From: Allacma fusca
Taxonomy: Eukaryota > Arthropoda > Collembola > Symphypleona > Sminthuridae
Assembly: GCA_947179485.1 (NCBI GenBank)
Contig: OX359245.1
Location: 50,703,067-50,767,066 of the forward strand
Length of the DNA stretch: 64,000 nucleotides
Direction of reading: 5' to 3'
The translations under genes and the position numbers were made by a program. The notes beneath the pieces are model-generated. The model did no database searches, had not been told where the DNA came from, and was given only the letters and a program-made list of their open reading frames with translations. The number at the start of each line of letters is the position of its first letter. Position 1 is the first letter of the stretch. This document shows positions 6,660 to 58,300 of the stretch, piece by piece.

Positions 6660-6750
6660 GTTTGGTACTGTACTCATGATCATAGTATGTCGGTATCATA
6701 TCAAAAGTTGATACCATCACTCTTTTTTAATTTTGATACCTTTAATACCT
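6660..6750 (+). repeat. GGTATCATA-rich interspersed repeat, copy 1
   Basis: This segment, containing GTATGTCGGTATCATATC and a TTTTTTAATTTTGATAC tract, matches the reverse complement of about 17680-17770 over some 70 bp with few differences. The similarity then fades into GATACC/GGTATC motifs. The two copies sit on either side of the zinc-protein gene, the hAT gene and Harbinger element 1. Confidence 0.7.
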
Positions 6751-7300
6751 TACAAAGGGACAGGCTAAAAACTGGTGGGAGGCAAGCACTACGGAACTGG
6801 TATGATACCAAGGTATCAGGAATTGATGCTTGTTCGCCCTTCAGATTTATGACTGGTATCAAAATTTGATGCATGAACGCACACAAACTGTAGAGCTTAA
6901 AAAACTAAAAAGCTGCTTCAATATAGTCCCCTCTTCTCAGGAGACTCCTGTAAAAGTTGTAAATTAGGAACTAACTGCAAGTAGTTACTCTAGTAAGAAA
7001 TACAAAAATATGTAATTACTCGTCTCAGCGTCAGTTCTCATTAGATTGCCATTGAAATGTTCGAATTCAACTATGGTAATTGTATGCAAATAAAAAACAA
7101 TGTGAACATTGCTTGGCAATATAGAAGCTGACGATGTCAGCCTGAAATCACATTACTGCTATTGAAAGTACACTTTGAAAGAACAAACCACAAAAACAAG
7201 TCAGTGGTAATTTTCAAATTTACATTTGTAGAACTGTGAATACACTTAAACTGAAAATAGAACTCGTTTGTGTTACATTATTTCGCAGTGGTTGTAAAAG

Positions 7301-7308
7301 TATAAAAA
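7301..7308 (+). promoter_or_regulatory. Probable TATA box of the zinc-protein gene
   Basis: TATAAAAA lies upstream of a good 5'-UTR donor (AAG|GTAAGT at 7491/7492). That donor pairs with the acceptor TTGATTGCAG at 7613, which precedes the ATG at 7634. Transcription would start near 7330. Confidence 0.5.
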
Positions 7309-7633
7309 GGCGGAATTCTTATCTGTTTCATCCAGTAGGCTCCAAATATAACTGTGATTATGATTGAATTTTCGGGCAGTATTTTTTAGTATAGCGTTAC
7401 GGTCCTATATTTTTATTTTGAAAGGTAACTCGTTCATTCAACAGTTAAACAGAGGTTGTGACGCTAAAAGAAATTGGTCATCTTCAAAAAGGTAAGTAAA
7501 GATACAAAGTTATAAAAAATTACATTTGACAAGGGAACGAGAATTCCCTATTACGAAATTCATATTTTTTAGACAGGATTCATGTAATGAAATAATTTAT
7601 AATTTGATTGCAGTTTTGTTGGCGTCTATAGAC

Positions 7634-10024
7634 ATGAATTCGCAGGCAAGTTCACACAACCTTGACGGCTGCCAGGACGACGTAATGTATATCTCCAGTA
7701 GCAGCGTTTCTGTGAATCAACCTGCGATTGTGAACAGATCAACCCTGCATTTGATCGGTCCGACGCAGGTTCATAGTCCCATCAGTACATCACAGTCCGT
7801 ATCTGAGGTGTCGCAGAATTTGCAGTGTTACGGGAATCTTAGCAACCCATATAAAAATACGGATACTGGAAAGACTTTCAAAATTGGTAAGTAAAAAATA
7901 TTGGGTGCATTCACGTTTACTTGGTTCAAATGGAAACATTGGAACAAACTCTTTAGTGATTATTTGCACCTTTTTGACAATAACCAAAGACTACAATAAA
8001 ACCACGGTAATTTTTTCAGAAAACCTAGCTGATGTGGTTACTCAACCCAATAATTTAAGCACAGTAATATTGCCGGCAGCGGAAGCGGAAAACGTCATGC
8101 AGATGCAAGTATTAACACTGCAAGTTTAGAAGCGTCTATCTCTGTGGAAGTACAGACCGAAGACTATCTTGTCACTAACTCCAAATCTCCGGATCCGACA
8201 ACAATTATTGGTGTCGACAAATTGCTCCGGACACCGTATTCAGTTGCCAACAACGCAGGAAATCCCGAGCTTTGTCCAATGGTAGATTTCCATTCGTTTT
8301 GTTTGTGCTGTTACGATTTCCCTGTCAAGCCGTACACTGCACTGGAATGGCCAACAACCCATGACGTGAACTTTGAATTGGCTCTGAAATTTAGGAATTC
8401 GTTCTTTAGTCTTGTTTCGGAAGCGGCTGAGAATCTACCAAGGTCAGGGACTGGGTTGGAATCTCCGGAGGCGTCCATAGTTACACATGAAGGTGATATA
8501 AATATTACAACTTAGCTTGCATTTACTGTGGTTATTATAATTACAGAATCGTTCAACGTAATCAGCATTGTGAGTGATGACTTAATTGTAGCTGTGTATT
8601 TCTTGCAGTTTTACCCTCGCTGCTTGGTCACGGACGATGCTTCTGCTGCTATAGTGCGGAGTACGTACATTTAGATCCTCTTTCATGGCCACCAAAGTCG
8701 ACACGTGCCGTGGCTTATAACCAAAATGATTCCGACAGCGAATCCATGCAATCAAACGGAACAAATTCAAGCATGACGTCAAATCGTAGTGAACATGACG
8801 AGAGCAGTGAACGTGATAGAGCAGAACAACCTCAAGCTGAAGTCTCAAAAATAGTAGCCGGAAACAACATTGCGTCAACTCAGGGTTTGCACAAGCCTAG
8901 CAGTGGTACTGCTAGAGATTTGCCTTTGGCTGATACGGACAGGTCATGGGATCCTGTATTATCGAAATTATTCAGTGAGTACCACCAACAGAAATGTTTT
9001 TAATTTACATCAGCTCAAACCTATAAACATTCTATGTAATTGTTCTGTGCTCAAAAGACATTTGTGACATTTTTTGCTACTTATAGGCAACCTTACTGGT
9101 TCTACGGACAGTGTCACCTCCGAAAGAAGTATTGTCGTTAGTAGGAGCCCATGTATAAATTACACTACTGCTGAATGTATTGACCCTCGACGGCCTCGAC
9201 TTGCGTCCTCGGCAAGTACGGACAAGGACATACCGCGCGTGGTTTTCGATGCAAATCGATTTATGGATGAACGTGCCAGCAAGGGCTACGTGTACAGTGC
9301 ACACCCTTTGCCTCCGTTGCACACAACCGTAAGCAATGGTGTGAACAGTACTGAGTCAAGTAAAACTGACATGGAAAGGCAACAATCTCAAGCTGCCATA
9401 ACTGAACCCAAAAGCAAACGACGAAAACTACAAGGTATCAATTCATGATGAATTGCCAATTATTTCGATTGCATTAGGTGTAAATTGAAACGAAAGTGCT
9501 TTCCAGGAGACCCATCTCCTCCGAAGCTAAGGCTAGCAGTGGAAAATTTGGGTCAACGTGAGACAGGAAACGTAGTAATGAAAGTTTCAACAGCCCCTGC
9601 CAATTTCAATGACGGCACGTCACCCAGTCCTTCAACGAAAAGGGTCCGATTTGAGATGATTGGGAACATGCGATTTTACAGCAATGGTAAACTGCAGGAT
9701 CTTTACTGTGACATGTGTGCCGGTTCTTACCCTACCGGAGCTTCGTTTAAACGTCATTTTCTGGACATTCACGTGCCCACTCGTTGCAAAGGTTCTACTA
9801 AGGTGAAGACTCCCTCCGAAAGGACAAATAGTTTTATGTGTGTTATTTCAGGGTGCTCGTACGAGAGCGAAAGTACAGCCAATCGACGGGCCCACATGAT
9901 AGACGTGCATGAGTGTCGCATGTCGCACAAAACCTTGAACGTTGTTACAGGTCATGTCGAGCCATGTCTTAAATCACAAGGCAGTCAGGGAAAATACTCC
10001 ACAAGATTAAATAAGAAAAAATAG
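7634..10024 (+). CDS. Novel zinc-binding nuclear-type protein with two C2H2 fingers and a duplicated CxCCY-WP motif
   Basis: Coding exons 7634-7886, 8103-8492, 8609-8974, 9087-9434 and 9507-10024 join in phase (every junction is phase 1) into 624 aa. A 5'-UTR exon ends at 7491. Two C2H2 fingers lie near the C-terminus: Cys520, Cys523, His536, His541 and Cys564, Cys569, His582, His587. Upstream there are two copies of C-x-C-C-Y-x11-W-P, at Cys151/153/154 with W167 and at Cys225/227/228 with W241, with identical spacing. A basic KSKRRKLQ stretch before exon 5 looks like a nuclear localisation signal, and Ser/Thr-rich linkers separate the modules. I recognise no family. Binding to DNA or chromatin is inferred from the fingers only. 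An upstream acceptor at 8019/8020 gives a short isoform. Confidence 0.8.
8020..8129 (+). CDS. Alternative, longer start of exon 2 giving a truncated isoform
   Basis: The acceptor TTTTTTCAG ending at 8019 is stronger by eye than the one ending at 8102, and it also matches the phase of exon 1. Reading on adds about 36 residues, ending at a stop at 8127-8129, so the product would be about 120 aa and lack all the Cys motifs. The two acceptors are 83 nt apart and lead into different frames. It could be a regulated isoform, a nonsense-mediated-decay switch, or a sign of an indel in this exon. Confidence 0.45.
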
Positions 10025-10349
10025 ATTCAAAATTTGTTGATTGTATGATTTTCATGTTTTTTAGACTTACCAATTCTGACAATGCATACACAATATGCAT
10101 GATTTAAGTAAATGTGTTAAACTTTATTATTTTTTGTGAAGTTTTAAACGATTTGCATTTTTTAAATACATAAACATTAATTTTCCGTTTGACAAAATAT
10201 TTTTGGTCTTGTCCTACTGCTTTTTTATTTCTCTATGTAGTATTATCTATGAATATTATAATACGACATGTGACCAATCATTCAAAATAGAGCATTGCTA
10301 TGGTGCGGTGCGGCTTTCATTTATGATCGATCCTAAAAATTAGCCTACA

Positions 10350-13300
10350 TTATAACATAACTACACGTTCCAGGGCTTCGCTTCCAACGAGTAGTACTGC
10401 ATCAAATGAATCATCAGATTCGCCAGCATCACAATCATTCTCACAGTCATCATCACCAACAGTCCATACGTCTTCAAACGGGTCAGGAGTGTCAGGACTC
10501 TCCCAGTCACTGATCTCTTCAGCGAGCGAAGTTGCACTGGTATCGTCAACATGACTGAGGCAGGTAGTGTTATGATACTGGCGCCATTGCAACACAGATT
10601 CGTCGTTGGTGTCACTATCTAGTAATGCTGTGTTTTCTGAAAGCAATAGCATTAAATGTAGCGTTCGCATTTTAATCCGATTTCTTCGTGGAGACAACCA
10701 GTAGCCCAACTTGCTAAAAGTTCGTTCCACGGTTGCGGTCGATATTTGGTTAACAAATACTTGTCGAACCGCCTGGTACATAAATGGGTATCGCATCTGG
10801 TTTGCAGTCCAGAACAGTTTGATAAATTCTGGATGATCTCGATCCTTGAAATCTTCCAAACCGTTTTCTAAAATATATTTAGTTAATTCATTACAGGCGC
10901 CAAAAGAGCGAGATAGCAGAAGGTTCTGAACACCAGAAACCCATCTTGCAGTTAAACTGGATTGGGAATGCGTTGCTTCTACAGTACTGAATTGTTCTGT
11001 ACACGAAGGAAACGCTCTGGTAAACATTTGAATAGCAACGTCGGCTGTTGGTAATGCGAACGGATTAGTGGGACATTCTGTAAAACACATACCAACGACG
11101 ATTGTTACGTGAGTTAAGATGTCGATAACATATTAGTAAAACTGATTAAATTACTAACTCTCATGATAGGAATCGAACCAATATTTGGTCCAAGTGGGGT
11201 TGAGGAAAACCATAAAAATGTAAGACTGATTCTTAAACAATGGAGTGTACTTTACGCATAAATTCAGGGTCAGGATATCCCGTAATTCCGCTAATGAACC
11301 ACTTAATTGCATCATAACCAGACCTGAAAGTACATGGCAGTAAGTGAGATAATTTGTATTTAACGTTGAAACAGTATAATTAAATCTTTTGATTAAGTTA
11401 ATTAACAAGGATTAATGAATGACACTTGCTATTGTGAACGCCCGTTATAATTGGAATTGCGTCACATGCTTTGAAAGAATCGCTCTGTAATACATCAGTA
11501 GCCATTGCTAATGGTTTCAGGATTTCCAGCACTTGTAATAAGTATTCACGATCTGTAGCTTCAAAAGGTTGAGGAGGCTGAGTCCGAACAGACTGCCGCG
11601 ACTCCATTCGAGAGTGCAAAGTGTAACATACCGCCGTAAATATGTTGACCTGTAAATCATAGATATCATCCACAAACTTATGTATACACAATCATTAGCG
11701 TAATACAAGCTCCTAAATTGGTTCGTTAACTTCATGCAAACTTCCAACTCAAATTGTAATGTATGGGAAATGTAACTTATTGCTGTATTTACCTTTGTAA
11801 ATGAAGCAAGAGCATCGTAGTAAGAATTCCACCGAGTATGTACAGGCTTAACAAGATTTTGGTTTCCACTTCGCTCCAGGAACAAATCATTTGCCAACGG
11901 CGATTTGCGAATATAATTAATTTGTTTACTCATCGTTTGCACATATTTCTCTACTTCTGGGACTGCTTTGATGGAATTCATAACAACTCCGTTCAGTACG
12001 TGAGCCAAACAAAAACTTTGCTCGTACTTATTTAATCCCGCCTTCTCGGCAAAATCGTTGCCAAATGCTTTGACCATGTTGCTGCCACCATCAGTAACCA
12101 CGTATCGAATCTACACTCCCAAACCTCATAATATTAACACACTTCGTAAAACACGATTAAGCATGCATATTTGGAAGACTTTTTGTATTATTGAACCTTG
12201 TGTAAAATTTCCAAGCTTTCCATCTCAGTTATGACTCTGTTACGGATGTTATCCCACGTATGGCGGCCTACTAACCGGATAACAGCTACAGTTCTCCTCT
12301 TTAGGGATAAATCCGAATCAAAATAGCAAACTTGAATACATAATACTGAGTCCAGGTATCGAGTGCTCCAGCAATCGAGAATTAGCGTGAGGTCAGTTAC
12401 GTCTTTGAGTGACCATCGTAAAAAGGGAACCACCTATGAAAAAAATATTATTTTGCTTGGCGTAAAACATACTAGAGACGCTATCATCTTCAAAGGTTAT
12501 CTATTAAGCACTAACATACCTTCTCATTACATGTCGTCTCAATCTTTTGTGCAAAGACTTTGTAGCTCAATGGCCGAACGGAAGGTTGCAGAATTTGTAA
12601 TGACCTTCTTAGAAATTTGTTGTTTAAAGATGCGAACGGAATCCCAGCAGTAATTATGAAATTTGTGAACGCATCATCAAACATTTGTTGTATGCGATGA
12701 CTACGTGGAAACTGGTTTCTAGTTTGAACGTTCCTTCCAATATCCACTTCAATATGATGATACTGTGTACATATGTAACCATCCGTTAGAAACCAGAATA
12801 AATATAATAGGATTTATTAAGTTATAAGTGTACAGGTTTGTAAAATGCATGTGCAGGCGAAATCAAATATAGTTTTTAAAACAACCTTTTTTAAATGTCC
12901 AGTTATTCTTGATGGGGCTGAATCATGACCACATACTTCAGTATCACAATATGTACACAACACCTTGTAAGGTCTTTTGTTACTCTTCCGGCTGTCTCCA
13001 TTTCGTGCTTCCGGGCTGGCATCATGCCCAAGATATTCGTAGTAATTTTCAAGGGCTGTCGGTAACTTAAAATTAGGTTTTTTTTTCTAATATGACTTCT
13101 ACTGGCTGTTTCTTGGTCCTTGTTGAAGAAACTGTAATATTGTTGTTTAAAATAACAAATATTGTTTCAAAACAAGAACTTTCAGATAGAACGGATTGAT
13201 TTGAAGAGGTACTTGAAGTCGACTGTCGTTTACGCTTCTGGATAAATCGGGGCCGTAACCTCATTCTTGACGTTGAAGTATTGTTTGCATCATTTTCCTC

Positions 13301-13456
13301 AGATTCACTAAAACCCTTGCTAGAGCCACTACAGCTTTCCTCAACATTATTAGCGGTCACGGCTGATTCAAAGTTGTTACCAAGAATATCTCGCAGATAT
13401 GCTTCACTAATACTTTCAATCTCTACACCTTGTGAATTCACGTCAACTGTGCTCAT
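10350..13456 (-). pseudogene. hAT-superfamily transposase gene, decayed or frameshifted
   Basis: Exons run right to left from an ATG at 13456. An acidic/Ser-rich N-terminus reads to 13073. A BED-type finger exon ends at 12886 (CTYCDTEVCGHD with HLKK). Core exons are 12520-12762, 12197-12433 (LILDCW) and 11793-12110 (VVTDGGSNM), which supply two catalytic Asp candidates. Exons around 11649 and 11326 follow. The last exon, ending at 10350, carries the hATC dimerisation motif (TATVERTFSKLG, SPRRNR) and an acidic tail. Splice phases fit from the finger onward. The N-terminal frame and the BED frame are separated by one base in a run of nine A near 13078-13086, so the gene is either broken there or the run is miscounted. 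hAT transposases act as cut-and-paste enzymes. The terminal inverted repeats were not identified. Confidence 0.8.
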
Positions 13457-13787
13457 TTTTTCGGTTTCAACAACCAGTCTTGTTGTACAATTGTATCAGT
13501 GGAAGTGAATGTTATTCTATAGCCTGGTGTATACTTTGCTGCTTCACGTACTCTTCCTATTAGATTCACTTCCTCTTCGCTTTGTCATCCTTTTTTGTGT
13601 TTACACTTTACAGTGAATATTGCGCGAAACTAAAAATCAAGCGTGCGTTAATTCTTGTCGTTCATACCTCGAACAAAGTATAAACGCACCAACGTGAAAC
13701 AATTGCATCCCGCGTTCACAAATATTTCTTCATTGCAGTTCATTCAAAGTAGTTATTTCATTCCAATTCATTAGCTGAATTGCAAAC

Positions 13788-15192
13788 ATGAATTTTGATA
13801 GCGATTTTTTAGAAAGAGTCATGCAGGTGTACTACTTGTATAAATGCAAAAACCGTAGAATTCGATCTATGTATATTCGTCCAATTTTTAAGAGAAGAAA
13901 TGTTCAAGGTGAGGCAAGTTTAGTTGACGAACTTGGTTCGCCCCAGGAAGAAAGGTACCATCACAAGTACTTCAGGTAAGAAAGCAAGAGATATATGATT
14001 ATATGTACAATATACATACAATGTTAATACAAAATACAATTGTAAATACAAATAAAAATGTATGAATAATTCATAGATTTTCTGTAATTATTACAGAATG
14101 GACAAAGATCAGTTTCATATTATCCTGGCCAAAATATCTACACTTGTGTATCACTCACCTACACATTTGCGTCCGATCTCTCTGCGCGACAGGTTGGCAA
14201 TTACGTTGAGGTAATTTACAATAAATTATTTACACATGTATTTATAGATTTAAAAATTTTAAATAAACAAATTGTGTTACAGATTTTTGGCTACTGGAAT
14301 GAAGCAACTATACTTGGCTATGAGTTACAGAATATCTCCATCCAGTGTCACCAAAATTTTACGCGAGATAATGACAGCAATCTGTCATGCATTTGAGGGT
14401 GAATACCTGCCGGAACCAAGCGCTCAAGAATGGCAACGAATCTCTCGAGAATTTTCGGAGAAGTGGAACTTCCCAAATGTTTGTGGTTCATTGGATGGGA
14501 AACATATACGGATAAAATGCCCACCAAAATCGGGATCGGTATACTACAATTACAAAGGTTATTACTCTATTGTATTGATGGCAGTTGCAGATGCCCATTA
14601 CAAGTTCACATTAGTGGATATCGGGGGATGTGGAGCAGTTTCCGATGGTGGAATTTTTCAAAACTCGAACATGCAAGTTTCACCCGAGTTTGTAGCACCG
14701 CCAGTATTTTTGGCTGATGATGCATTTCCACTGAGGCCTAACTTGATGAAACCTTTCCCGGGTCAAAAGAATTTGGGCTTACCTTTGGACAAACGAATAT
14801 ATAATTACCGTCATTCAAGGGCAAGAATGGTGGTTGAAAATACTTTTGGAATATTTCAGGCCAGGTTTAGAATTTTTGAAACTCCAATAGATGGACATTT
14901 GGATTTTATTAAGTTAGCGGTAAAAACTTGTGTTATTTTGCACAATTGTTTATGCAAGAAACAAGATTTGTTCGGTTTAACTGTTGATACTGAGGTGGAA
15001 GGAGAAATAACCGAAGGGAATTGGAGAGAAATAATTTCCAATGATACAGGAATAGGAGAAATCAGTCAACAGGGCAGTAATAATGCTACACAAACTGCTT
15101 TTAAAATAAGAGAAAGTTTAAAAAACTATTTTTCTACATCAGCCGGGGAATTGGAATGGCAAGTAAGGTCAGCTAGACGTGGTTATGAATAA
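13788..15192 (+). CDS. Harbinger 1 transposase (DDE superfamily nuclease)
   Basis: Exons 13788-13975, 14097-14210 and 14283-15192 join in phase into 403 aa with no stops. The third exon shows the HARBI1/DDE_Tnp_4 pattern: GSLDGKHI (first Asp), VDIGGCGAVSDGGIF (second Asp), LADDAFPL, then NYRHSRARMVVENTFG with the catalytic Glu. A helix-turn-helix-like segment (SYRISPSSVTKILRE) precedes the catalytic core. The enzyme excises and inserts the element in the nucleus, and in this family it normally needs the second, Myb- or MADF-like protein. The start is the first ATG of exon 1. Identification is firm; activity is inferred from the open frame. Confidence 0.92.
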
Positions 15193-15338
15193 TCCATATA
15201 CTATATTTATTTCCATAAATGTACTGATTCAATTGTGGTCACTGTAATCAAATATTAAACTGTCACATGGGTTATAAACTGAAATTTATTCTAAAACATT
15301 ATTACTGCAAAATGTATCTGAAATAGGCATTTTTGCAT

Positions 15339-16744
15339 TTATTCATACAGTACTTCAATTTCCTTCTCGCTTACCAAATTTTGAATTTGGTTTTGGAGAA
15401 GAACCGCGGCTTTCGGATCCTTTTGTGCAATCTTTGACAATTTTATGGAAATTGAATTGCAGAAATGTTGTATGTCCGTCATTTCCTTTCCCTTGACCAC
15501 TTTGAGCAATTCTTCGCCGAAAGGATCCAGTTTAGCTTTCTGACATAATACACATCAGAAATATGTATGCATATGCAGTTTATATTAGAATATAATATAT
15601 CACTAGTGCAGGGGTCGGAGTTTTGTAAATCTACGTCGAAGATCATTTCTGATTTTCCCTGCTAAATATTACCCCCTGCTGGGAGGTCCTCAACAATTTC
15701 AAAAATCCTTGCTGAAAAACGGTCGGCGATTTTCACAATCCGTTGGCAAAAACAAATCCCCTGCAAGACGTGAAATCCCTGGCAAATTAGGCCAATGAAT
15801 CTAAAAATCCCTGTTTGTCTAACAATTTCCCCTGAAACATGCCAACAAATTTGAAAATCCGTGTTCGTAAAAATAAACCACTTCACTTTGAGATTTTTCC
15901 TGCCAGAAAAATTATTTCCCTGGGAAGAATCTTCCCGTCTTCCCACGAAAATCCGACCCCTGCACATGAGTCGCCTTATTGGTTCTAGAAACTATTAAAT
16001 ATTTTAGAGTTTCTTACCTTCGTGGATTTGCAGTGCGGAACTGGTGATTCTGTACGTGAAGATGGAACTGGCATTTCTGTCTCATTATTGTAAGTGTCTA
16101 TCTCACGTTCATCATCCAAAGAGTCACTGCTTCCGGAAACGGTCACCGCATCGCCTAGACCTGTTATGTTGGAAATGGTGCTGTGCAAGAGATATGGAAA
16201 ATGAAAATTTAGTCAGCACTACAGAACTCTTTCTTTAAAACTCTCACAAGATTTAAATTTTACCCATTTAACCCTTCAGTTTCCACAGGGTCCTCACAAA
16301 ATCTCATTGATCTTTCATGACGAAAAAACGGCAGGCTTCCAGCTTCTTGTCCAGATTTAGTGTACACCTTACGTTTGTAGGCCAACCATTGATTTCGTAT
16401 TCGCTTCCAGTGATCCTTACAAGCAGTAGCTATATACAGAGTTAAGGAATAAAACCATGAATAAGTGCTTGTATTTCAAATATGATTGTTTTTATGAAAC
16501 TATTATTTTACTAAATCATTTAAATGCTAAAAATCAATGTGAACAATTAAAATTTAATATTAATCTTACCAGTGGTAGCAAATTTTGTTGGTTGGATTTG
16601 GTCGTAAACCCATTCCCAGCAGTTACTAACAAAAATTGCATTAGCATGATTTGGATCCGACTTTTTGAATATTGCTGGCTTTTGTTTTACATACTCTATT
16701 AATTTTTCCTCAAATTCATTCTTTTGGACAGATTGCCGACTCAT
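15339..16744 (-). CDS. Harbinger 1 accessory DNA-binding protein, MADF/BESS-like
   Basis: Exons 16744-16570, 16429-16264, 16180-16018 and 15539-15339 join in phase into 234 aa. Residues about 12-95 match the MADF pattern: KLIEYVKQKPAIF, then a Trp-containing helix (NCWEWVYDQI), then DHWKRIRNQWLAYKR. A Ser/Asp/Glu-rich linker follows. The C-terminus (DIQHFCNSISIKLSKIAQ, then KAAVLLQNQI) resembles a BESS-type interaction motif. In PIF/Harbinger elements this second protein binds subterminal DNA and brings the transposase to the nucleus. The usual partner is Myb/SANT-like; a MADF-type one is less common. A 354-bp MITE sits in the last intron without disturbing coding. Confidence 0.85.
15609..15962. 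mobile_element. hAT-type MITE nested in Harbinger 1
   Basis: The terminal inverted repeats are CAGGGGTCGGA at 15609 and TCCGACCCCTG ending at 15962. The flanking 8-mers CACTAGTG and CACATGAG are partly alike, consistent with a decayed 8-bp duplication. The interior consists of AAATCCCTG-like repeats. It lies wholly inside the last intron of the accessory gene, so it is removed by splicing. Confidence 0.75.
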
Positions 16745-17679
16745 GTTGACGATATGCACAGAAGTGATCAAAATAATAATTTATAATAATGTAAAAACAA
16801 ATTGATAAACTTCCAGTTTAATTTCACAGTCCACTTCCTCCCGACTTCACTCATGCAAAGTTGAAATCGTTCAACTTTACTAAAATGACGCATGAATGAC
16901 GGAGGAGTGGCGCAATTGAAACTATAAATGGCGCGAGCGACGGAGGAAAAAGGACGCGTGAAGCACGTAGCACGGTCACGTGATCTTCATGTCACGTGAC
17001 GGGTTACAATGAAAGTATAAATGTAAAAAGTGACGTATTTGCTTCATATTTTTAGTAAAGCACAGATGAAAAGCAAAGTATAGACCAGCCTTATAGTTGG
17101 AAATTGCAATCGATCGGTTGCTAAAGTTGCGGAAGTGCCTACTTATCAACTTCCCACAGAACAATGTACTACCTGTAATTATTCTTACTCTAAACTTGTC
17201 GCTCAAATATTTGCTTATTAGAACATATTCATTGCAAATCAAGCAACGTGTCCTTTAGTTTGTACCTATGTAGCCTCTATGACTGACAGTGCCAATTGCT
17301 CAGGTCATAGGCATAGGCATGTCATATGCATGCACGTGTCATTTTTGTGAACGAGCTGGCCTATGTACATTTCCACTGATATCTATCCAAAATATGTAAA
17401 TATGTATTCTGGTTCGAATGCATTATTTTTATTGACTACTTTCTGTACCTTGGATAACATTATAACAAAGTACTGCAATCGGTAAGTCACAAATTGTGAC
17501 TCACAATTGCATTAATTGTGTTTCACCGTAACAGCGAGCCGGCCCGACCAGGAGTACGCGAAGTTTGTAAACAGGTATCAAATTCTGCTGATTGTTACAG
17601 CACAAATGATACTATTTTACCTGGTATCATTTTTTGATACCACCTCCCAAACCTCGACCCCTTAAAGCCATTTGCTGAC

Positions 17680-17770
17680 CATTGATACGCGGTATCAAAA
17701 GTATCAAAATTAAAAAAGAGCGATGGTATCAACTTTTGATATGATACCGACATACTCTGCTCATGATATA
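17680..17770 (-). repeat. GGTATCATA-rich interspersed repeat, copy 2 (inverted)
   Basis: This is the inverted relative of 6660-6750. Shared elements include the GATACCGACATAC edge, the GATACCATC-like motif and the AAAATTAAAAAAGAG tract. Beyond the conserved core, both copies continue with different arrangements of GGTATC and GATACC words. Confidence 0.7.
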
Positions 17771-24897: not shown

Positions 24898-25549
24898 CTT
24901 TTGCCAAGGATAATTTGTCTCTTACATCTGTCTTCTATGGAATTTAGCTCTACTGCTCACCGATCCCTATAGAATTACAGGAGCTGGCTTTTAAAAGGCC
25001 AGGAATAGACGGAGGTATAGAAAGAGAAAGGGGAGAGTTTAAATTTTCCTGCCCAATATCCTTGACTTACAGTAGGTGGAGGTTGGAGGTGTTCTTAATT
25101 CATGAGGGCTCGGGATTTCAATCAATGCTTCACAAATTTTCCTTGGGTGGAAGATCTGTTTGGGAAAAATTCTTATTAGAAGATTTGTTTTTAGATTTTA
25201 AGGGCCTTTGACGTTGGAAATTTCAAATGAGTGTGGATTTTAAATGGGGAAAATTAAGGGCGGTCAAAATTTCCTGAGAAATTCTTAAATGTATAGAAAT
25301 TTTAAGTGGGGTTTAAAATTTACATGAAATTTTGACGTTGACTCTGAAATTTGCACGTATTTTAAGGGGGTTTCCAAAATTGACAATATATTTTAGGGCT
25401 GTGGAAAATTTCCGCAAAAAATTTAGACAGTTTCGTAAATCTAGCAAAATTTGACGTGGGGTTTCAAAAATTTAGGCAACTTTGAGGTAATTTTTTGAAG
25501 ATGCATACAACTTGGAGGTAATTTTCTGAAGAGGCATAAAATTTTTAGG

Positions 25550-25860
25550 TAGTTCCAAAATTTAAGCAAGTTTTGAGGTAGTTTCAAAATTTTAAGCAAA
25601 TTTGGAGATAGTTTCAAAAATTTAAACAAATTTTGAGATAGTTTCAAAAATTTAAACAAATTTTGGGGTAGTTTCAACAATTTAGACAAATTTTGAGGTA
25701 GTTTCAAAAATTTAGACACATTTTGAGATACTTTCAAAAATTTTAACAAATTTTGGGGTAGTTTCAACAATTTAAACAAATTTTGAGGTAGTTTCAAAAA
25801 TTTAGACACATTTTGAGATACTTTCAAAAATTTTAACAAATTTTGACGAAACTTTGAAAA
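25550..25860. repeat. Tandem array, ~30-bp unit
   Basis: Units of the form TTTTGAGGTAGTTTCAAAAA plus about ten more bases repeat around ten times with point changes. Because the unit is exactly ten codons, one minus-strand frame stays open for 146 codons and reads as repeated LKLPQNL. This is a repeat artefact rather than a gene. Confidence 0.8.
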
Positions 25861-28702
25861 TTTTCTCAAAATTTGATACACTTTCCAAAATTTTCACTAA
25901 ATTTGGTGATTTTTTTCAACATTTTCCCACTTTGTTTGCGCTTACCAAAAGTTCCAAAAATTTAGGGTTGGTTTTTAAAATTTCCACAGATTTTGATGGA
26001 ATTTCCGCAATTTTGCACAAATGTTTTGAATAGTTACTGGCAATAACCAAAATTCTTTTTTGTTATTTGGATTAAATTCCAGAAATGTTTCTGAGTATCG
26101 AATTGCAGAGCAAATTTTCGAAAATCTTTCAAAATTTCAGTTATTTCGAAATTTATAATTGAATTGTTTCCTCAGTAGTTACTTACAAGCCCGAGAAGTT
26201 TCCTGCACAATTTCCGAACAATTATTTAAAATATATAAAATTTTTGTATTGTCACACAATTCTTGGCAGCAACTCTTTGGCTTAATTCCAAAAATATTTT
26301 TGCGGGAAGGATTTGAACTCGTAAATTTTCTATCGAGCCGGAAATTCTACCCCCTGGGAAATTTGACGTTACAAATTAATATTAAATATTTGTCTTCTAG
26401 AAAAACTGAAGATTTTATTAAAAATTGATCAAGGGAACAGAAAACCAATTAGCAAAAATATTTCTAGGTTCTAAAATTTGGGTCATTAAGCCTGTGGGAA
26501 AATACAGGGAAACTTTTATCTGAGTGATAAATTATTTTGAGTGACAAAACACCCTTAAAATTTGCAAGCTCGATTAATCCAATGCAGAGAGAGAGAGATA
26601 GAAAAGTGTGATGGTGTAAATTTAGCCCAAGTAATAAAAGCTCGTGCAAAGTTCTTAAGTTAATAGTTAAAAGTGTGAGGGAGAACTCTATCAAATATAA
26701 ACTCACATGGATGTAGAAATCAAACGGGAGGATTTTGAGTCTGGTTCATCTCAATAAAAATTATAAGGGAAAAAATATTTGAGGCTGGAAAAAAAAACTT
26801 TCTTGTCACACTGTCAGGGAGGAGATGTGATGGGAGACTAAATACAAGCTTAAATAAATTTTATAAAACTACGTGTGAGCAGGATTTGAGTTACATTTGA
26901 ACACCCACACCGTACATATATATACATTGGAATGTACATATTAAAATATGTACGTCTGGACGCAAATCATGGGAAATGTAAACAGCCCATTTAGAACCCA
27001 TACATTAAAATATGGTATATGGAAAAGTGCATCTGATAGGAACAAGGTTATGGCTTTTGTATGCTCCTTCCATGCAGTGTATGAGGATAGGGGCAAAGCC
27101 GTTAAAATATGGGCCAGTTGCTAAAACCCTTTGAATGGTAATTCGCTCAATGAAATTTTTTCCGAGCTCTGGGCAATACATTTCAGTCCTGAGTCTCTCA
27201 AATATTTGTCCCCTTCCCTCAACTTTGATTTATTTAAAAAACAAAAACATTTTGCAAATAATTCGGCCCCAAATTTTCCTTCAAAATTCAACCTTCCTTA
27301 CTCTTAACATTTTACAGCCTTATTTTTGAACGCGCGTTTTCCCCGTAAATATTTTCCCTCAAAAGTTCCAACTCCCAGGAAAATTTCATTAGAACGTTTT
27401 TTGTGGAAAATTTTATGGGCTTTCTGCCCACAAATTTTGAATTTGCTCCGTTGAAAATTTTGCGCGCAAAAAATTCTTTTAGCAAACATGGATTTTTCAA
27501 AAATATGCATGTCTAAGCAAATTTTAGTACAAACATTTGGGGCAGGTGTATAAAATATGGGCGTTTCTGTTAAAATTCATTTTTTTTAAATTTTGAGGAA
27601 AATATTTTATTTAAGGGGGTGTAAAATATTTCTGGGACTAACTTTTTGTATTTACAGGAGCTTATATATATATATATGAGAGTTTCACTCTTAATATGAT
27701 TTCTCACAAGCTCATCTTTAACATTTCATTTTTTTTCAATGATATGGGATTTGCATTGGGTGACTTGCTCTCCTGCAAACACGTACCCAAAAATGCAAGT
27801 GTATATAAGGATTGGGGCTGGGGTGAAATAAAGTTGGAAGGAAGATCCAGTTCCGTCCTATCCTTCAACTTTTTCATGCTCAATTGGAAGGAAGTGATCC
27901 CACGCGGCTGAGTTTCTTTTGGGCATGTCATATTTTTCCTTTTCATATTTTTGCATAGACTCAAACCCTCAAATTTACCATACAAAATATGCACTGCACC
28001 AAATATTTTTTACAGGAGTTGTATATGAAAGTCGCCCATAAATTTTATCGCAGTCTCTTTGAAACCCAACTAAAAATATTCCGCAGAATAAATTTTACAT
28101 AAAAACTCAAAAAATTCCAAAATTCTGCAAAACCCTGGAACAAAATATTGTACTTAAAAAAATGTATTCAAAAATTATTTCCCCCAAAAAATTCCCTGAT
28201 TTTTAATCCCCCAATTAGAAAATTTTTTCAATCTGCAGGCTTTATAAATTTTTGAAAGAATTTTCAAGCGCAAATTTTAGCCCCTAAATTTAGACCATAA
28301 TGTTGCGCTGATATTGGATAGTTTTTTTTCTGCTGGAAATTTACTACAAATTTAGGGTAAGAATTTTGCTAGAAAATTTTTAACAAATTTCAAAAAAGTT
28401 AATTATTTTAGGCTAAAAAATATAATTGTAGGATGTTTTGCATGGAATAAAAGGGCAGGTTGGAGATCCATTCTTTTTTGCATTTTTCACAGTGAATTTT
28501 CTTTAATACAATAATATCAGTCACAGATATTGTTGGTTGGCGTGTGTTTGCCATAATAATGAATATTTTTATGATAGGATGTAATTATTTGAGAAAAAAT
28601 AAAATTATAATGAAATCACATTAAAAACAGGTATAATAATTGTAATGTATCGAAAGGAATCACATTTAGCTCTTTTTCTTCTCTTTTTTCCCATAGAACA
28701 TT

Positions 28703-28980: not shown

Positions 28981-35942
<6,962 letters not shown>

Positions 35943-36499: not shown

Positions 36500-37780
36500 A
36501 AACTCAAGTATGGGTTAGATTGTGGATGTTTATTTTATGAGTAGTAACTTTTGATGTTCAGGTTTGGGTCGAGTTCAAGTTTTGGCTTATTTGGGGTGTA
36601 AGTTTTGGGAGAGTTTGAGTTGGGTAGGTTTGAAGTATTAGCTTTTTGGGTTATTGTCAAATTTTGGTAAACTATGATTTCAAGTTTGGGTCAAGTTCAA
36701 GTTTTGGTAAACTTGGAGGTCAAGTGTGGGTCAAGTTCAAGGTTTCGGTAAACTTTGAGGTCAAGTGTGGGTCAAGTTCAAGGTTTTGGTAAACTTTGAG
36801 GTCAAGTGTGGGTCAAGTTCAAGGTTTTGGTAAACTTGGAGGACAACTCTGGGTCAAGTTCAAGTTTTGGTAAACTTGGACATCAACTTCAGGCCAAGTT
36901 CAAGTTTTGGTGAACTTGGAATTCAACTCTGGATCAAGTATTTGTTTGGGTCAAGTTCAAGTTTTGGTAAACTTGGAGGTCAAGTGTGGGTCAAGTTCAA
37001 GTTTTGGTAAACTTGGAGGTCAAGTGTGGGTCAAGTTCAAGTTTTAGCAAACTTGGAGGTCAACTCTGGGTCAAGTTCAAGTTTTGGTAAACTTGGACAT
37101 CAACTTCAGGCCAAGTTCTAGTTTTGGTGAACTTGGAATTCAACTCTGGATCAAGTATTTGTTTGGGCTAAGTTCAAGTTTTGGTAAACTTGGAGGGAAA
37201 GTCTGGGTCAAGTTCAAGTTTTGGTAAACTTGGAGGTCAAGTGTGGGTCAAGTTCAAGTTTTAGCAAACTTGGAGGTCAACTCTGGGTCAAGTTCAAGTT
37301 TTGGTAAACTTGGACATCAACTTCAGGCCAAGTTCAAGTTTTGGTGAACTTGGAATTCAACTCTCGATCAAGTATTTGTTTGGGCTAAGTTCAAGCTTTG
37401 GTAAACTTGGAGTTCAAGTTTGGGTCAAACTCAAATTTTTTATAAACTAGAGTTTCAACGCTGGATCAATTTATTTGTTTGGGTTGAGTCTGGTATAATT
37501 AAACTTTAAGTATAAGTACGAGCCGAGTTCAAGTTTCAAGATTCATTAAAGCTGAAGTTCTAGTATACTTTCAGTTTAAGTGTATGTCTGAGTCAAGTAG
37601 TATCACTTTAAGTTCAATTTTCGGTCAAGTACAAGTTTGGGTAGAGCTCGGATTTGGTAAATTAGGAGTTCGTGTTTGATTAAAGTTCAAGTTTGGTTAA
37701 GTATGGAGTTCAAGTTTGGTTAAGTATAGAGTTCAAGTTTGGTTATGTATGGAGTTCAAGTATTAGCACATTTTCAGTTT
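36500..37780. repeat. Tandem array of ~40-bp GGTCAAGTTCAAG units with a 217-bp higher-order period
   Basis: The basic unit is GGGTCAAGTTCAAGTTTTGG followed by TAAACTTGGAGGTCAAGTGT. The variant CATCAACTTCAGGCCAAG starts at 36881, 37098 and 37315, exactly 217 bp apart each time, showing recent amplification of a multi-unit block. The edges decay into single GTCAAGTTT words. Confidence 0.85.
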
Positions 37781-40439: not shown

Positions 40440-41560
40440 CATTAGAAATTTAAATTCGATTACAATTTCAAGTGCACTTCAAAATTTCAAGTACACTTCA
40501 AAATTTCAAGTGCACTTCAAAATTTCAAGGGCACTTCCAAATTCAAGTAAAATTCAGAATTCAAACGCACTTCAAAATTCAAGTGCACTTCAAAATTCAA
40601 GTACAATTCACAATTCAATTGCACTTTACAATTCAAGTGCACTTTACAATTCAAGTGCACTTCACAATTTAAGTGCAATTCACAATTTAATTGCAATTCA
40701 AAATTCAAGTGCAATTCAAAATTTCAAGTACGTTTCAAAATTTTAAGGGCACTTCGAAAAACAAGTCCAGTTCAGATTTCTAGTGCACTTCAGAATTCAA
40801 ATACATTTCAAAATTCTTGAAAAAAGTGCACTTCAAACAAAATTCAGGTACAATTCAAAATTCAAACGCTCTACGCAATTCAAACTAACTTCAAAATTTC
40901 AAGTGCACTTCAAAATTTCAAGTGCACTTCCAAATTCAAGTAAAATTCAGAATTCAAACGCACTTCAAAATTCAAGTGCACTTCAAAATTCAAGTACAAT
41001 TCACAATTCAATTGCACTTCACAATTCAAGTGCACTTTACAATTCAAGTGCACTTCACAATTTAAATAAAATTCAAAATTCAAGTGCAATTCAAAATTTC
41101 AAGTACGTTTCAAAATTTTAAGGGCACTTCGAAAATCAAGTCCAGTTCAGATTTCTAGTGCACTTCAGAATTCAAATACATTTCAAAATTCTTGAAAAAA
41201 GTGCACTTCAAACAAAATTCAGGTACAATTCAAAATTCAAACGCTCTACGCAATTCAAACTAACTTCAAAATTCAAGTGCAATTCAAAATTCAAACGCTC
41301 TTCGCAATTCAAACACCCTTCAAAATTCAAGTCCGCTTCAGATTTTTAGTGCACTTCAGAATTTCAATGTACTTCAAACAACATTCAGGTACAATTCATA
41401 ATTTGAAAGCACTTTGTAATTCAAACGCAGTTCAAAATTCAAGCGCATTTCAAAATTCAAGTACAATTCAAAATTCAAACGCACTCCGCAACTCAAACGC
41501 AGTTCAAAATTCAAGCGCACTTTAAAATTCTAATACACTCAAAAATTCAAATCGCCAAAT
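40440..41560. repeat. Tandem array of ~19-bp ATTCAAGTGCACTTCAAA units with a 375-bp higher-order period
   Basis: The units carry the palindromic word AAGTGCACTT. The marker TTCAGATTTCTAGTGCAC occurs at about 40771 and again 375 bp further on, and the marker AAGGGCACTTCGAA shows the same shift, so a block of about 375 bp was duplicated. The open frames reading as FKIQVHFKI or NSSALQNSS are repeat artefacts. Confidence 0.85.
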
Positions 41561-43213
41561 TGGAAATGCAAATCTGCTTATTGGAAATTCTAGTTCACAT
41601 GGAAATTCAAGTCAAGTTCAAATACAGAAACTCCACATAAAATCCAAAATTGACTTCAAGTCTTCTATTCCAATACACTTTAAATTTCCAATCGAAAATT
41701 CTCTTGAGAGTGACTTCAGTGGAAATATATATGTCATTCGCCAAGACATTAGCATTGGAAAAGTTTTACTTCCGACTCAATTATTTTTCAAGGGAAAACT
41801 GAGAGTGCGTTAAAATTCTGTGGCAAATAATGCACAAGTTCTATGGTTAATTTTTTTCACTTTTTTTTACACATCCACTAAAAAAAGGGAAACTCAAAGT
41901 CATAAGTCATGCAAAACGTTTGTGTGTATCTTTGGTGATTTTTCTTTTTAGCACGATCCTAATACATAGCTATACATAGGCTCTAGTGGTTTGTGGAAAT
42001 GTTCCACTTGAGCTCCGTTTCGTTTTGGCATATTCATTCCTTCTTGTTTTTTTTGACACTTTTTTTTTCTATACCGAATTCGTTTAGTTCCTTGATTCTG
42101 CGTTTTTGCTCTGGTTTTTTTCTCACCCTTTTATTTTCAAATCGTACCAATAAAATGCAATGATTTTAAAAGGCGTTTAATTCGTTTTTTCCCCTACCAT
42201 TAATCTAACATTAAGAGTGGGAAAATCAAGTTCTCACGTTGCCCCAAAATAAAACATTATCCCCATAAAAAATTTATATTTAAATTATCATTACTCTCAA
42301 GCTTGCAAAAATAATCCTAATAATTTAATTAATTACATTTTTATTTAAATCCAAAATCCCAACATTCTCAACTGTTTTTTTAACTGTAAAAATAATTCCC
42401 TCAAATATTGGTCCGTAAATAAATTCACCTCATAATTATTCTCAAACTGCCCCTAAAATCCTTCGAAACGTTAAAAGGCTCATTGAAAAAGATGACAAAC
42501 TAAAATATGAATCATTTCCTTAAAAAACAAAAACAACTCCTAGCGTTACAAAAATTATGTCTCAAAACCCCCCACAAAAGAATAACTGTACGTCCACCTT
42601 TTATATGCACTTTTTCTGACAATAATAAGCCCTATTTTGCCCATCCAGATATCAATCTTGCTCTTGAAATTGCCCTCACAGTAATTTATGTTCCGCTTTT
42701 ATTATTCCAATTAATTATATCTCAAAATCCTGTATTTGAATCCATGGAAGCATAAAAATCTACAGTTTTAAAAAACCCCTTCCGAATATTTATCTCCCAA
42801 TCATTTGCAAATGAAAGCGCATCAGCATATACAAGTATCTTGGGATTTTGACCCCTGTGGCCAGATACATTGACCTAGGTCAGTGAGGTAATTTTTGTAA
42901 AATTCAGAAAAAGATTCTCTTTAAAATGGGGGAATCAAATTTGTCAAATTTTAAAATTTGTTCCCTAGGAAAAATATTGAAATAAATGGTGAGGATTAAA
43001 ATAACTGTATGTAAGTAGTATGTATGTTTAACACATGGGAAATATACAGATCTTTATATTGACAGGATTTAGTACAGAGTGAGTTTTTATCAAATAGACT
43101 TTTGAGACAGGTTTATTATTATTGAGTTTTTTCTGCCGGTTTGTATGGGCTTAATTTTTTTTTATGGGAAACGGTGAATATATGGGAAGATTCAGTTGTG
43201 ATTAGATTGTTAC

Positions 43214-55325: not shown

Positions 55326-58300
55326 CTGGATTTTATTATGTTTAAAATTGAATTTTGGGGGGAGTTTGAAGTTAATTCTAGTTTTGTAGGGTGGGGGGTT
55401 GGGTTTGAGGGAAGTTTGAGTGAGAGTTGAACTTATTTTAAAGAGCGGGACTCTTGACACGGTGTGTTCTGGGGTGTAGGTGAAGTTTGAGTTTGGGTGC
55501 AGGTCGAGTTTGGGTTTGGTGTAGGTCAAGTTTGAGTTTGGGTGCAGGTCAAGTTTGAGTTTGGGTGCATGTTAAGTTTGAGTTTGGGCGTAGGCCAAGT
55601 TTGAGTTTGGTGAAGGTCAAGTTTGAGCTTGGATGCAGGTCAAGTTTGAGTTTGAGTGCAGGCCAAGTTTGAGTTTGGTGAATGCCAAGTTTGAGTTTGG
55701 TGAATGCCAAGTTTGAGTTTGGGCGAAGGTCAAGTTTGAGTTTGGGTGTAGGCCAAGTTTGAGTTTGGTGAAGGTCAAGTTTGAGCTTGGATGCAGGTCA
55801 AGTTTGAGTTTGAGTGCAGGCCAAGTTTGAGTTTGGTGAATGCCAAGTTTGAGTTTGGGCGCAGGTCAAGTTTGAGTTTGGGTGGAGGCCAAGTTTGAGT
55901 TTGGGTACAGAGTTTGGGTGCAGGCCAAGTTTGAGTTTGGGTGCAGGTGGAATTTGAATTTGTTTGTAGGTCAAGTTTGAGTGCAGGTCAAGTATGAAGA
56001 GGGAACAGATCGAGTTTGAGTAGGAGAACACGTACAGATTAATTTAGGGTAAAAGACCAGTTTGAGTTAGGGGTAAAAGTCAAGTTTGAGTTGAGGTAGA
56101 TATCAAAATTGATTAGAGCACAGGCCAAGTTTGAGTAGGGATACAGGTCAAGTTTGAGTTAGGGTATAGGCCAAGTTAAAAATAAGGTGTAGGTCGTAGG
56201 TCAGGTGTAAAAGCCAAGTTTGAGTTAGGGTATATGTCTGGGGTATAGGTCAAGTTTGAGTTGAGGTGGTTGTCTAATTTGATTTGGAGAATAGGTCATG
56301 TTTGAGTAAGAGAACTTGTCAAGTGTTAGTTGGAATACATGTCAAGTTGGTGTTAGATAACATGCCAAGGTTTAGTCAGGACAGAAGTCAAGTTGGAGTG
56401 GTAGTTTAGGTCAAGTTTAAGTGGAATTTGGGATCTATTGCAGGTCAAGTTTTGCTTAAATCCAGCCAAGGACCGCGTAAATTCCAAGTTTGAGTGTACA
56501 CTTAAGGAAATTTAAGGGTTAGGTCAGGGAAGGTCATGTAAAGTTTTAGATGTATTATCAACTTTTCTTACTTCCCATGAGCGGCATCTGCTTTACTACT
56601 AGCTAGCTCAAGATTAAAAGCTTTTAATATTTCATTTTGAGACATTTCTAGGGTCAAAGCGGAGCTGAAAGGCCTAGTAGTGATTATGGATGTCGCGGAG
56701 TTTGATTCTCTCCATGTCCGTGGACGCAATTGGTCATATTTTATGTTACAGAGTAGATAAAATGCAAGAAGATTATTGTTTTTGGAGGTGTACAGTTCAT
56801 CCGATTGATCTCAGAAAATTAATGGAGGTCACACATAAACAGATGAAAAATACATATACAAATAGACTTTGAGGTGCAGCATGTGCCACCTATCGTCTGA
56901 TTTTGGAATTCGACTGAAGTGGCTTTTGAAATAGCATTGACAGCCATTTTGTTCATAGTACCAGCTCCCGCTGTATATTTTACAAATATCGCTTCGCCCC
57001 TTGATGAATCAGCACCTTATAATGCATTTTTCCCCCATGATGTTTTAATTCGGGACTATGCTTTTGTAGTCCCAGATGAAGCCTCAACAAAGTTTGAGCT
57101 AAGAATAATAAATTATTTTTTACTCGACTTAGGCTCGAACTTGAAATTGAAATCAAGATTATTGAAAATGAGTAATTGAAATTGCGTAACTATTTTGGAA
57201 ACGGTTGTGACATTTATAATGAGCATTTTTAATATTCTGGGACATTTTAATTTTTTAACTTTCCACGCAATTGAACAGCAACTTCCTCCAAAAGTGTGGT
57301 GCTCGATATAATTAGTCCGCACTCGGATCAGACATGACTCGCCTAACTTGAGCTAAAATTGTTGCGAGTTAGGGTTGATTTGATTGACACTTAAGCCAGC
57401 TCCATGAATTTGTTTTGGGGAGCTACATATAATAACTTTTCAAGGAAAATTGGCCTGAATGTCGATCCAATGAGATCCCCGGGCATAATTGTAAAGCTCA
57501 TAATAAATGTGTATTGATTGATTAGGGTGCATTATATTGTGTAATGTATTGTAAGCGTACAAACGATTGACGTCATTTGTTTTCTCAAGACCTGCTACAT
57601 ATAGTCATAATTTATGCATGAACATTTGTTGTTACAAATAACATTATTTTCAGAGGGAATTCCATAATGGGATTGCAGAGTCAGTCAAATTAGGTCAAGG
57701 CCTTATTGCTACGTTTAATTTAATTACTTAATGTATGTAATACATACTATGTTTTTTTTACTCTTAAAAAGCGCACACATAACTTCTGCAAGCTAAAATC
57801 CTTTAGTATTGTTTACAATAATTCCACTAGTCATACAGTAAAGTGATAACGTTGAAACTTGCTTTATTTTTTTTTTGTCAACATGATTTTGAAATATGTT
57901 CACAAAACGGTATTATTCCATATTTCCTAATAATTATTATCATGAAATGCTGTTCATTATCAATTGCTGTTTTTTTGTTACGAACAATTTTTTTAACCTA
58001 CCTACAGAAAACATTCTCTCCGCACAAAAACAAATACCTCTCACAATACAGTACAAGCATGCTGTTCCTCCATATTCATATATACACATATATGTAGGTA
58101 TTTGCTCAGAGCTAAATATTAGGCAATAACTACGTTAACTAAGGTAATTATTACAATTTTTTTTATTTTGAGGAAACGAGGTCTATGGATATATAGGCCT
58201 AAATTCTTACAACCTCTAATGCATTTATAGCAGCGGGGAGCACTAAAGACACGGACCCCAGTGACACAAGTGTGGTACATAGAAGATAGAAAAAATTCTA

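Follow-up and report, generated by a model that had tools for sequence, protein, structure and literature searches.

The gene at positions 7634-10024, which encodes a putative zinc protein of 624 amino acids, lies inside a single hAT-type DNA transposon (6681-17759 of the window, the window being the whole 64,000-nucleotide stretch of Allacma fusca DNA that was analysed), and it very probably belongs to that transposon. The best explanation, held with fairly good confidence, is a hAT element with two genes, the zinc protein being, on the tentatively preferred reading, an accessory factor that binds DNA; we infer the function of this protein, its zinc binding and its DNA target. The features of the element are as follows.

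6673..6680, no strand: left 8-bp target-site duplication, CTCATGAT, identical to the 8-mer at 17760-17767
6681..6749, + strand: left terminal inverted repeat, 69 nt, starting CATAGTATGTCGGTATCA
6681..6930, no strand: left subterminal zone with six GGTATC/GATACC
7634..7886, + strand: zinc gene exon 1, with a phase-1 donor
8020..8492, + strand: zinc gene exon 2 (start probably at 8020; earlier placed at 8103), with an apparent one-base frameshift near 8109
8300..8353, + strand: motif 1, CLCCYDFPVKPYTALEWP, residues 151-168
8609..8974, + strand: zinc gene exon 3
8638..8691, + strand: motif 2, CFCCYSAEYVHLDPLSWP, residues 225-242
9087..9434, + strand: zinc gene exon 4, including 9194-9264
9507..10024, + strand: zinc gene exon 5, which holds both C2H2-spaced stretches
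10350..13456, - strand: hAT transposase gene, several exons, with an apparent frameshift near 13085 (by comparison with L056)
13521..17091, + strand: nested PIF/Harbinger transposon, target-site duplication TAT at 13518-13520 and 17092-17094
17509..17759, no strand: right subterminal zone with six GGTATC/GATACC
17691..17759, - strand: right terminal inverted repeat, 69 nt
17760..17767, no strand: right 8-bp target-site duplication, CTCATGAT, matching the left 8-mer

Two features of the hAT superfamily are present, the 8-bp target-site duplication and a transposase with the C-terminal dimerisation domain (PF05699 in 10350-11132, E 1.6e-11, 44.2 bits against a cut-off of 21.4). Exact 8-bp duplications flank four of the five hAT copies with inspected ends, i.e. 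the window element, L033, L034 and L039, the last three with duplications that differ in sequence from the window's; in the fifth, L035, the duplication agrees at 5 of 8 positions only. The inverted repeats between which the first-pass annotation had placed the gene are real: the arms at 6674-6749 and 17691-17766 are 76 nt long and 93% complementary, and they take in 7 flanking nt, the terminal repeat proper being 69 nt. The dimerisation domain, the 8-bp duplications and the occurrence of deletion derivatives that share the element ends are common to the window element and the hAT superfamily (Ac, hobo, Hermes, Tip100, BuT2). The usual size of a hAT element is 2.5-5 kb, with 10-25 bp inverted repeats (PMC3942097, in the part available), whereas the window element departs from these typical, non-defining dimensions, with about 7.5 kb without its nested insert, 69-nt repeats and a second gene. 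The transposase gene is oriented tail-to-tail with the zinc gene. It carries a C-x2-C...H...H stretch at 12817-13086 that appears BED-like by eye; the Pfam BED model does not match this stretch, and only PF25420 does (E 0.032).

The hAT element carries a nested insertion with the attributes of PIF/Harbinger elements: a DDE_Tnp_4 transposase (14263-15192, + strand; PF13359, E 8e-32), a partner DNA-binding protein (a MADF protein on the - strand, E 8e-10) and a 3-bp duplication. Judged by eye for their boundaries, the duplications of the Harbinger copies are TAT in the window, TAG at L058, TAA at L059 and TTA at L060. The insertion site is empty in five hAT-copy loci (L030, L033, L034, L039 and L056), which count as about three independent witnesses, since L033, L034 and L039 form one derivative family. 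The empty sites in these sister copies indicate that the Harbinger element landed later, and that the hAT element was previously a two-gene unit of about 7.5 kb. The Harbinger family has at least six near-complete copies elsewhere, 91-98% identical, and was apparently active recently. Within it, at 15606-15965, is an element of about 360 bp with 21-nt inverted ends, a very abundant short repeat that alone takes 33 of the 41 scored matches in the Harbinger genome search (the best 40 or so of 2612 candidates).

How is the zinc gene distributed in the genome? The searches covered the species' own assembly of 392,743,791 bases in 91 contigs, and at E <= 0.01 the whole protein finds 7 matches at three places: the window (five exons), C1:31.64 Mb (68% identity) and C1:16.12 Mb (43%). 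Pieces of hAT transposase are present at all three, in the order and orientation seen in the window, so that zinc gene and transposase go together in three copies that have diverged from one another. At C1:31.64 Mb (L030/L031), the left end, exon 2, transposase pieces and the right end follow one another as in the window. At C1:16.12 Mb (L032), pieces of exons 3 and 4 are followed by a transposase piece at a similar distance, and no inverted repeats were detected within the 9.9 kb examined. A search with the transposase DNA gave 22 matches, mostly short derivatives; one further transposase copy, L056 (C1:74.57 Mb), ends at 11911, short of the zinc-gene region.

The inverted repeat is far more widespread, with at least 40 matches. 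The examination of 21 of these loci, three of which repeat others, left 18 further copies, and in 16 of the 18 the segment 9194-9264 of exon 4 is kept, whole or in part, between the left flank and the start of the transposase. Some of these remnants are only about 30 nt long and one has an E value of 0.009; the two copies that lack a remnant are L019 (= L034) and L038. The 16 copies are not independent, as most of them are built alike inside and go back to a single deletion. The exon 4 scrap, together with the hAT linkage of all three confident places, is the ground for assigning the zinc gene to the transposon. Many near-identical genomic copies had been proposed as the sign of a transposon gene, and taken literally this sign fails: the abundant copies of the element are deletion derivatives, which leaves the gene close to single-copy.

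The 624-amino acid protein of the first-pass annotation is reproduced exactly by joining 7634-7886, 8103-8492, 8609-8974, 9087-9434 and 9507-10024. All four introns are GT-AG and all four are phase 1. The start of exon 2 at 8103 is doubtful. The acceptor there (gtcatgcag) is weak, with no pyrimidine tract, whereas an alternative acceptor ending at 8019 (ttttttcag) is pyrimidine-rich and looks stronger. When read from 8020, the window frame meets a stop at 8127-8129. In the C1:31.64 Mb copy, whose alignment to the window begins at 8015, the frame from the equivalent of the 8019 acceptor is open for 76 codons, beyond the disputed site. The two copies differ by one base near 8109 and, with the frame open in the other copy, the window gene is read as frameshifted. 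The clean 624-codon frame is probably reached, to judge from this comparison, through the weak acceptor at 8103, which skips the frameshift.

The most distinctive part of the protein is a repeated C-x-C-C-Y-x11-W-P motif. As first described, it is real: the pattern C.CCY.{11}WP matches twice in the 624-residue model. Only 1.3e-7 matches are expected from the protein's own composition, so the duplicated motif is not a chance occurrence, and the local alignment score of the two segments, 55, was reached in none of 2000 shuffles. Also borne out is the statement that the sequence differs outside the six shared residues, as the in-register similarity was equalled in 620 of 5000 shuffles. The suggested origin by exon duplication, on the other hand, finds no support. 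Motif 1 starts 280 nt inside exon 2 counted from 8020 (197 nt counted from 8103) and motif 2 starts 29 nt inside exon 3; these unequal depths (280 against 29 nt), with no likeness past the six shared residues, argue against duplication of a whole exon. The C-x-C-C is open to a second reading, CxxC plus an extra Cys, each unit then being a putative zinc knuckle. A ZAD-like arrangement (CxxC...CxxC) with one shared zinc site is what we took as a candidate for this region; no Pfam family matched the motif region.

Exon 5 has two stretches that, read by eye, follow the C2H2 spacing C-x2-4-C-x12-H-x3-5-H, one at 9707-9772 (C-x2-C-x12-H-x4-H) and one at 9839-9910 (C-x4-C-x12-H-x4-H). Of the two C2H2 fingers originally proposed, the spacing is therefore present, but no curated Pfam finger model is reached: none matches exon 5 at its cut-off, the nearest being PF23223 (E 0.0034, 17.4 bits against 27) and then PF13894 (12.6 bits, under the cut-off of 27). 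The protein shares with C2H2 zinc-finger proteins the Cys-Cys-His-His spacing of exon 5, and differs from them in that exon 5 scores below the curated cut-offs and the CxCCY part has no Pfam family. Its description as unrecognised holds, with no known family above cut-off in Pfam, NCBIfam or solved structures. The NCBIfam search gave a single weak match (E 0.095); among solved structures the best match for exon 5 was uS11 (E 0.11), and the motif region had nothing up to E 10. The translation of exon 3 matched TEX19 (E 0.023, 15.1 bits against a cut-off of 27); the match lies below cut-off and vanishes with the motif pieces alone, and was judged due to chance. A scan of viral contigs for the motif pattern gave 10 matches, none of them a relative. 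Single-sequence structure models were uninformative (mean pLDDT 32.0 for exon 2 and 31.4 for exon 5).

Comparison with the divergent copies offers a hint as to which parts of the protein have been kept. Between the window and L032, motif 2 has the same residue in 15 of 18 codons, with 11 silent and 3 replacement changes; in L032 a Cys replaces the Tyr, and Phe-Pro at a shifted spacing replaces Trp-Pro. In motif 1, 14 of 18 codons specify the same residue in the window and at C1:31.64 Mb, where all Cys and the Tyr are unchanged; the four replaced codons include two stops, at the position of Glu-Trp. The Trp-Pro part is absent from both related copies. The Cys clusters thus appear, from these alignments, to be conserved units, and the Trp-Pro part does not. 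Codon counts across whole aligned exons give no clear selection. The exon 3 tail, window against L032, keeps the same residue in 22 of 53 codons (pN 0.30, pS 0.33), and exon 2 past the frameshift, window against C1:31.64 Mb, in 68 of 98 (pN 0.16, pS 0.20). The exon 3 tail and exon 2 as a whole look nearly neutral, as would be expected of decayed copies and also of a passenger.

In the transposase, third-position changes are in excess in four of five segments compared between the window and L056, the exception being 12890-13060. A two-base difference in an A run near 13085, where the L056 frame reads on, may point to decay once more, or be an error in the homopolymer. Taken together, the sequence comparisons strongly suggest that the window copy is an inactivated relic.

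What might the zinc protein do? Before the Harbinger insertion, the element of about 7.5 kb would have had the order inverted repeat, zinc gene (+), transposase (-), inverted repeat. The transposase would cut and paste the element, and the zinc protein would be a DNA-binding accessory factor that helps its synapsis or expression. The two CxxC knuckles may share a single zinc ion, or they may act in pairing, and the C2H2 fingers may recognise the GGTATC repeats at both ends. Each terminal 250 nt holds six GGTATC/GATACC, of which three lie outside the inverted repeat, against 4 in the 7005-nt middle of the element and 8 in the remainder of the window (52.8 kb); random 250-nt stretches of the window have at most one. 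Clustered subterminal repeats serve as protein-binding sites in hAT elements. The transposase could, however, equally be the binder. Accessory proteins of transposable elements are described as possibly improving integration and transfer or contributing to regulation (PMC6431247, in the part available). An accessory DNA-binding role is the mechanism that we tentatively prefer, short of calling it probable; it ranks ahead of a captured passenger and of an anti-silencing factor. What speaks against the two-gene reading itself is that a single copy, the window's, has the whole zinc gene, and this copy looks frameshifted.

A captured passenger is the strongest rival, a serious though less likely possibility: on a single occasion the transposon would have acquired a zinc-finger gene of the host, which then travelled with it and brought no advantage. 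The usual hAT length (PMC3942097, in the part available) makes the zinc gene look like an addition, clear constraint is lacking over most of the coding sequence that can be aligned, and derivative copies have spread despite the loss of nearly all of the gene. The passenger reading is opposed by the domination of silent changes in motif 2, and by the multi-intron gene having stayed linked to the transposase across copies that diverged to about 43% protein identity (L029 region). A host paralogue is also missing, as the search at E <= 0.01 of this assembly finds the three hAT-linked places and no other, and less stringent searches, up to E 10, with the motif region or exon 5 as query yield weak matches only (best others 0.31 and 0.36); the source of a captured gene could still lie beyond this assembly. 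The 0.31 match, L061 (C8:20064000-20068000, minus strand), has HGRCFCCY in common with motif 2 near 20065842-20065925; the sequence is non-open and the motif stretch alone matches (tblastx E 1e-4), and it is perhaps a very old relic.

An anti-silencing or regulatory factor of the element, akin to Arabidopsis VANC and not a helper of transposition, is improbable. Sequence-specific anti-silencing proteins coded by transposons exist (PMC10398659 and PMC5735166, in the parts available), and the finger-like spacing with clustered end repeats would suit such a role. VANC, as described in the parts of these sources available, is likewise a second, sequence-specific protein of a DNA transposon; the likeness is by description only, and VANC belongs to plant VANDAL elements, of another superfamily and another kingdom. 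In the parts of the anti-silencing literature available, no precedent was found.

The first-pass annotation had left the choice between a lineage-specific host gene and a domesticated transposon gene. A transposon gene is correct, as the hAT element around it is complete and has an 8-bp target duplication; host function or domestication is very improbable, and the gene appears decayed. The near single-copy state, the five exons with GT-AG junctions and the 624-codon frame would fit a gene functional in the animal. Such a gene should have an intact frame outside a mobile element; the zinc gene sits within exact target duplications, its frame depends on a weak acceptor by which an apparent frameshift is avoided, and the element has since been hit by the Harbinger insertion. 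That the zinc gene is part of a further transposon nested in the hAT element is scarcely credible: the Harbinger shows that this element did receive an insertion, but at E <= 0.01 no zinc-gene copy is found away from hAT sequence, and the order of zinc gene and hAT parts is constant in divergent copies.

The accessory-factor reading has a parallel in the nested element. The PIF/Harbinger two-gene plan, a DDE transposase with a Myb/MADF-like protein, resembles that of the hAT element, a transposase with a small, here putative, DNA-binding partner; the transposase superfamily is another, and by Pfam the zinc protein is not MADF/Myb-like. A bolder proposal, possible but rather doubtful, is a springtail lineage of two-gene hAT elements whose second protein combines a new paired-knuckle zinc module with C2H2-like stretches, binds GGTATC and is needed for, or protects, transposition. 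The zinc protein would then be the hAT counterpart of the Harbinger and VANDAL second proteins. Descriptions of hAT elements usually centre on a single gene, that of the transposase. The open literature, in the parts available, on hAT elements with a second or captured gene and on springtail hAT elements gave no precedent. Were a second, linked gene kept through several divergent hAT copies, it would mean that this superfamily, too, gave rise to accessory proteins, and the protein would add a possibly new zinc-binding module. The claim is a modest one, the evidence being one genome and relic copies. The gene is also a caution for the annotation of young genes, since what looks like an orphan gene, clean splice sites included, can turn out to be a transposon passenger in decay.

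The window has other repeats. At its left edge (1-547) are two inverted arms, 1-206 and 342-547, that are 98% complementary, and tandem arrays whose repeat units measure about 40, 18, 23, 30 and 20-21 nt are found at 36600-37500, 40440-41620, 55440-56180, 25280-25995 and 33335-33725.
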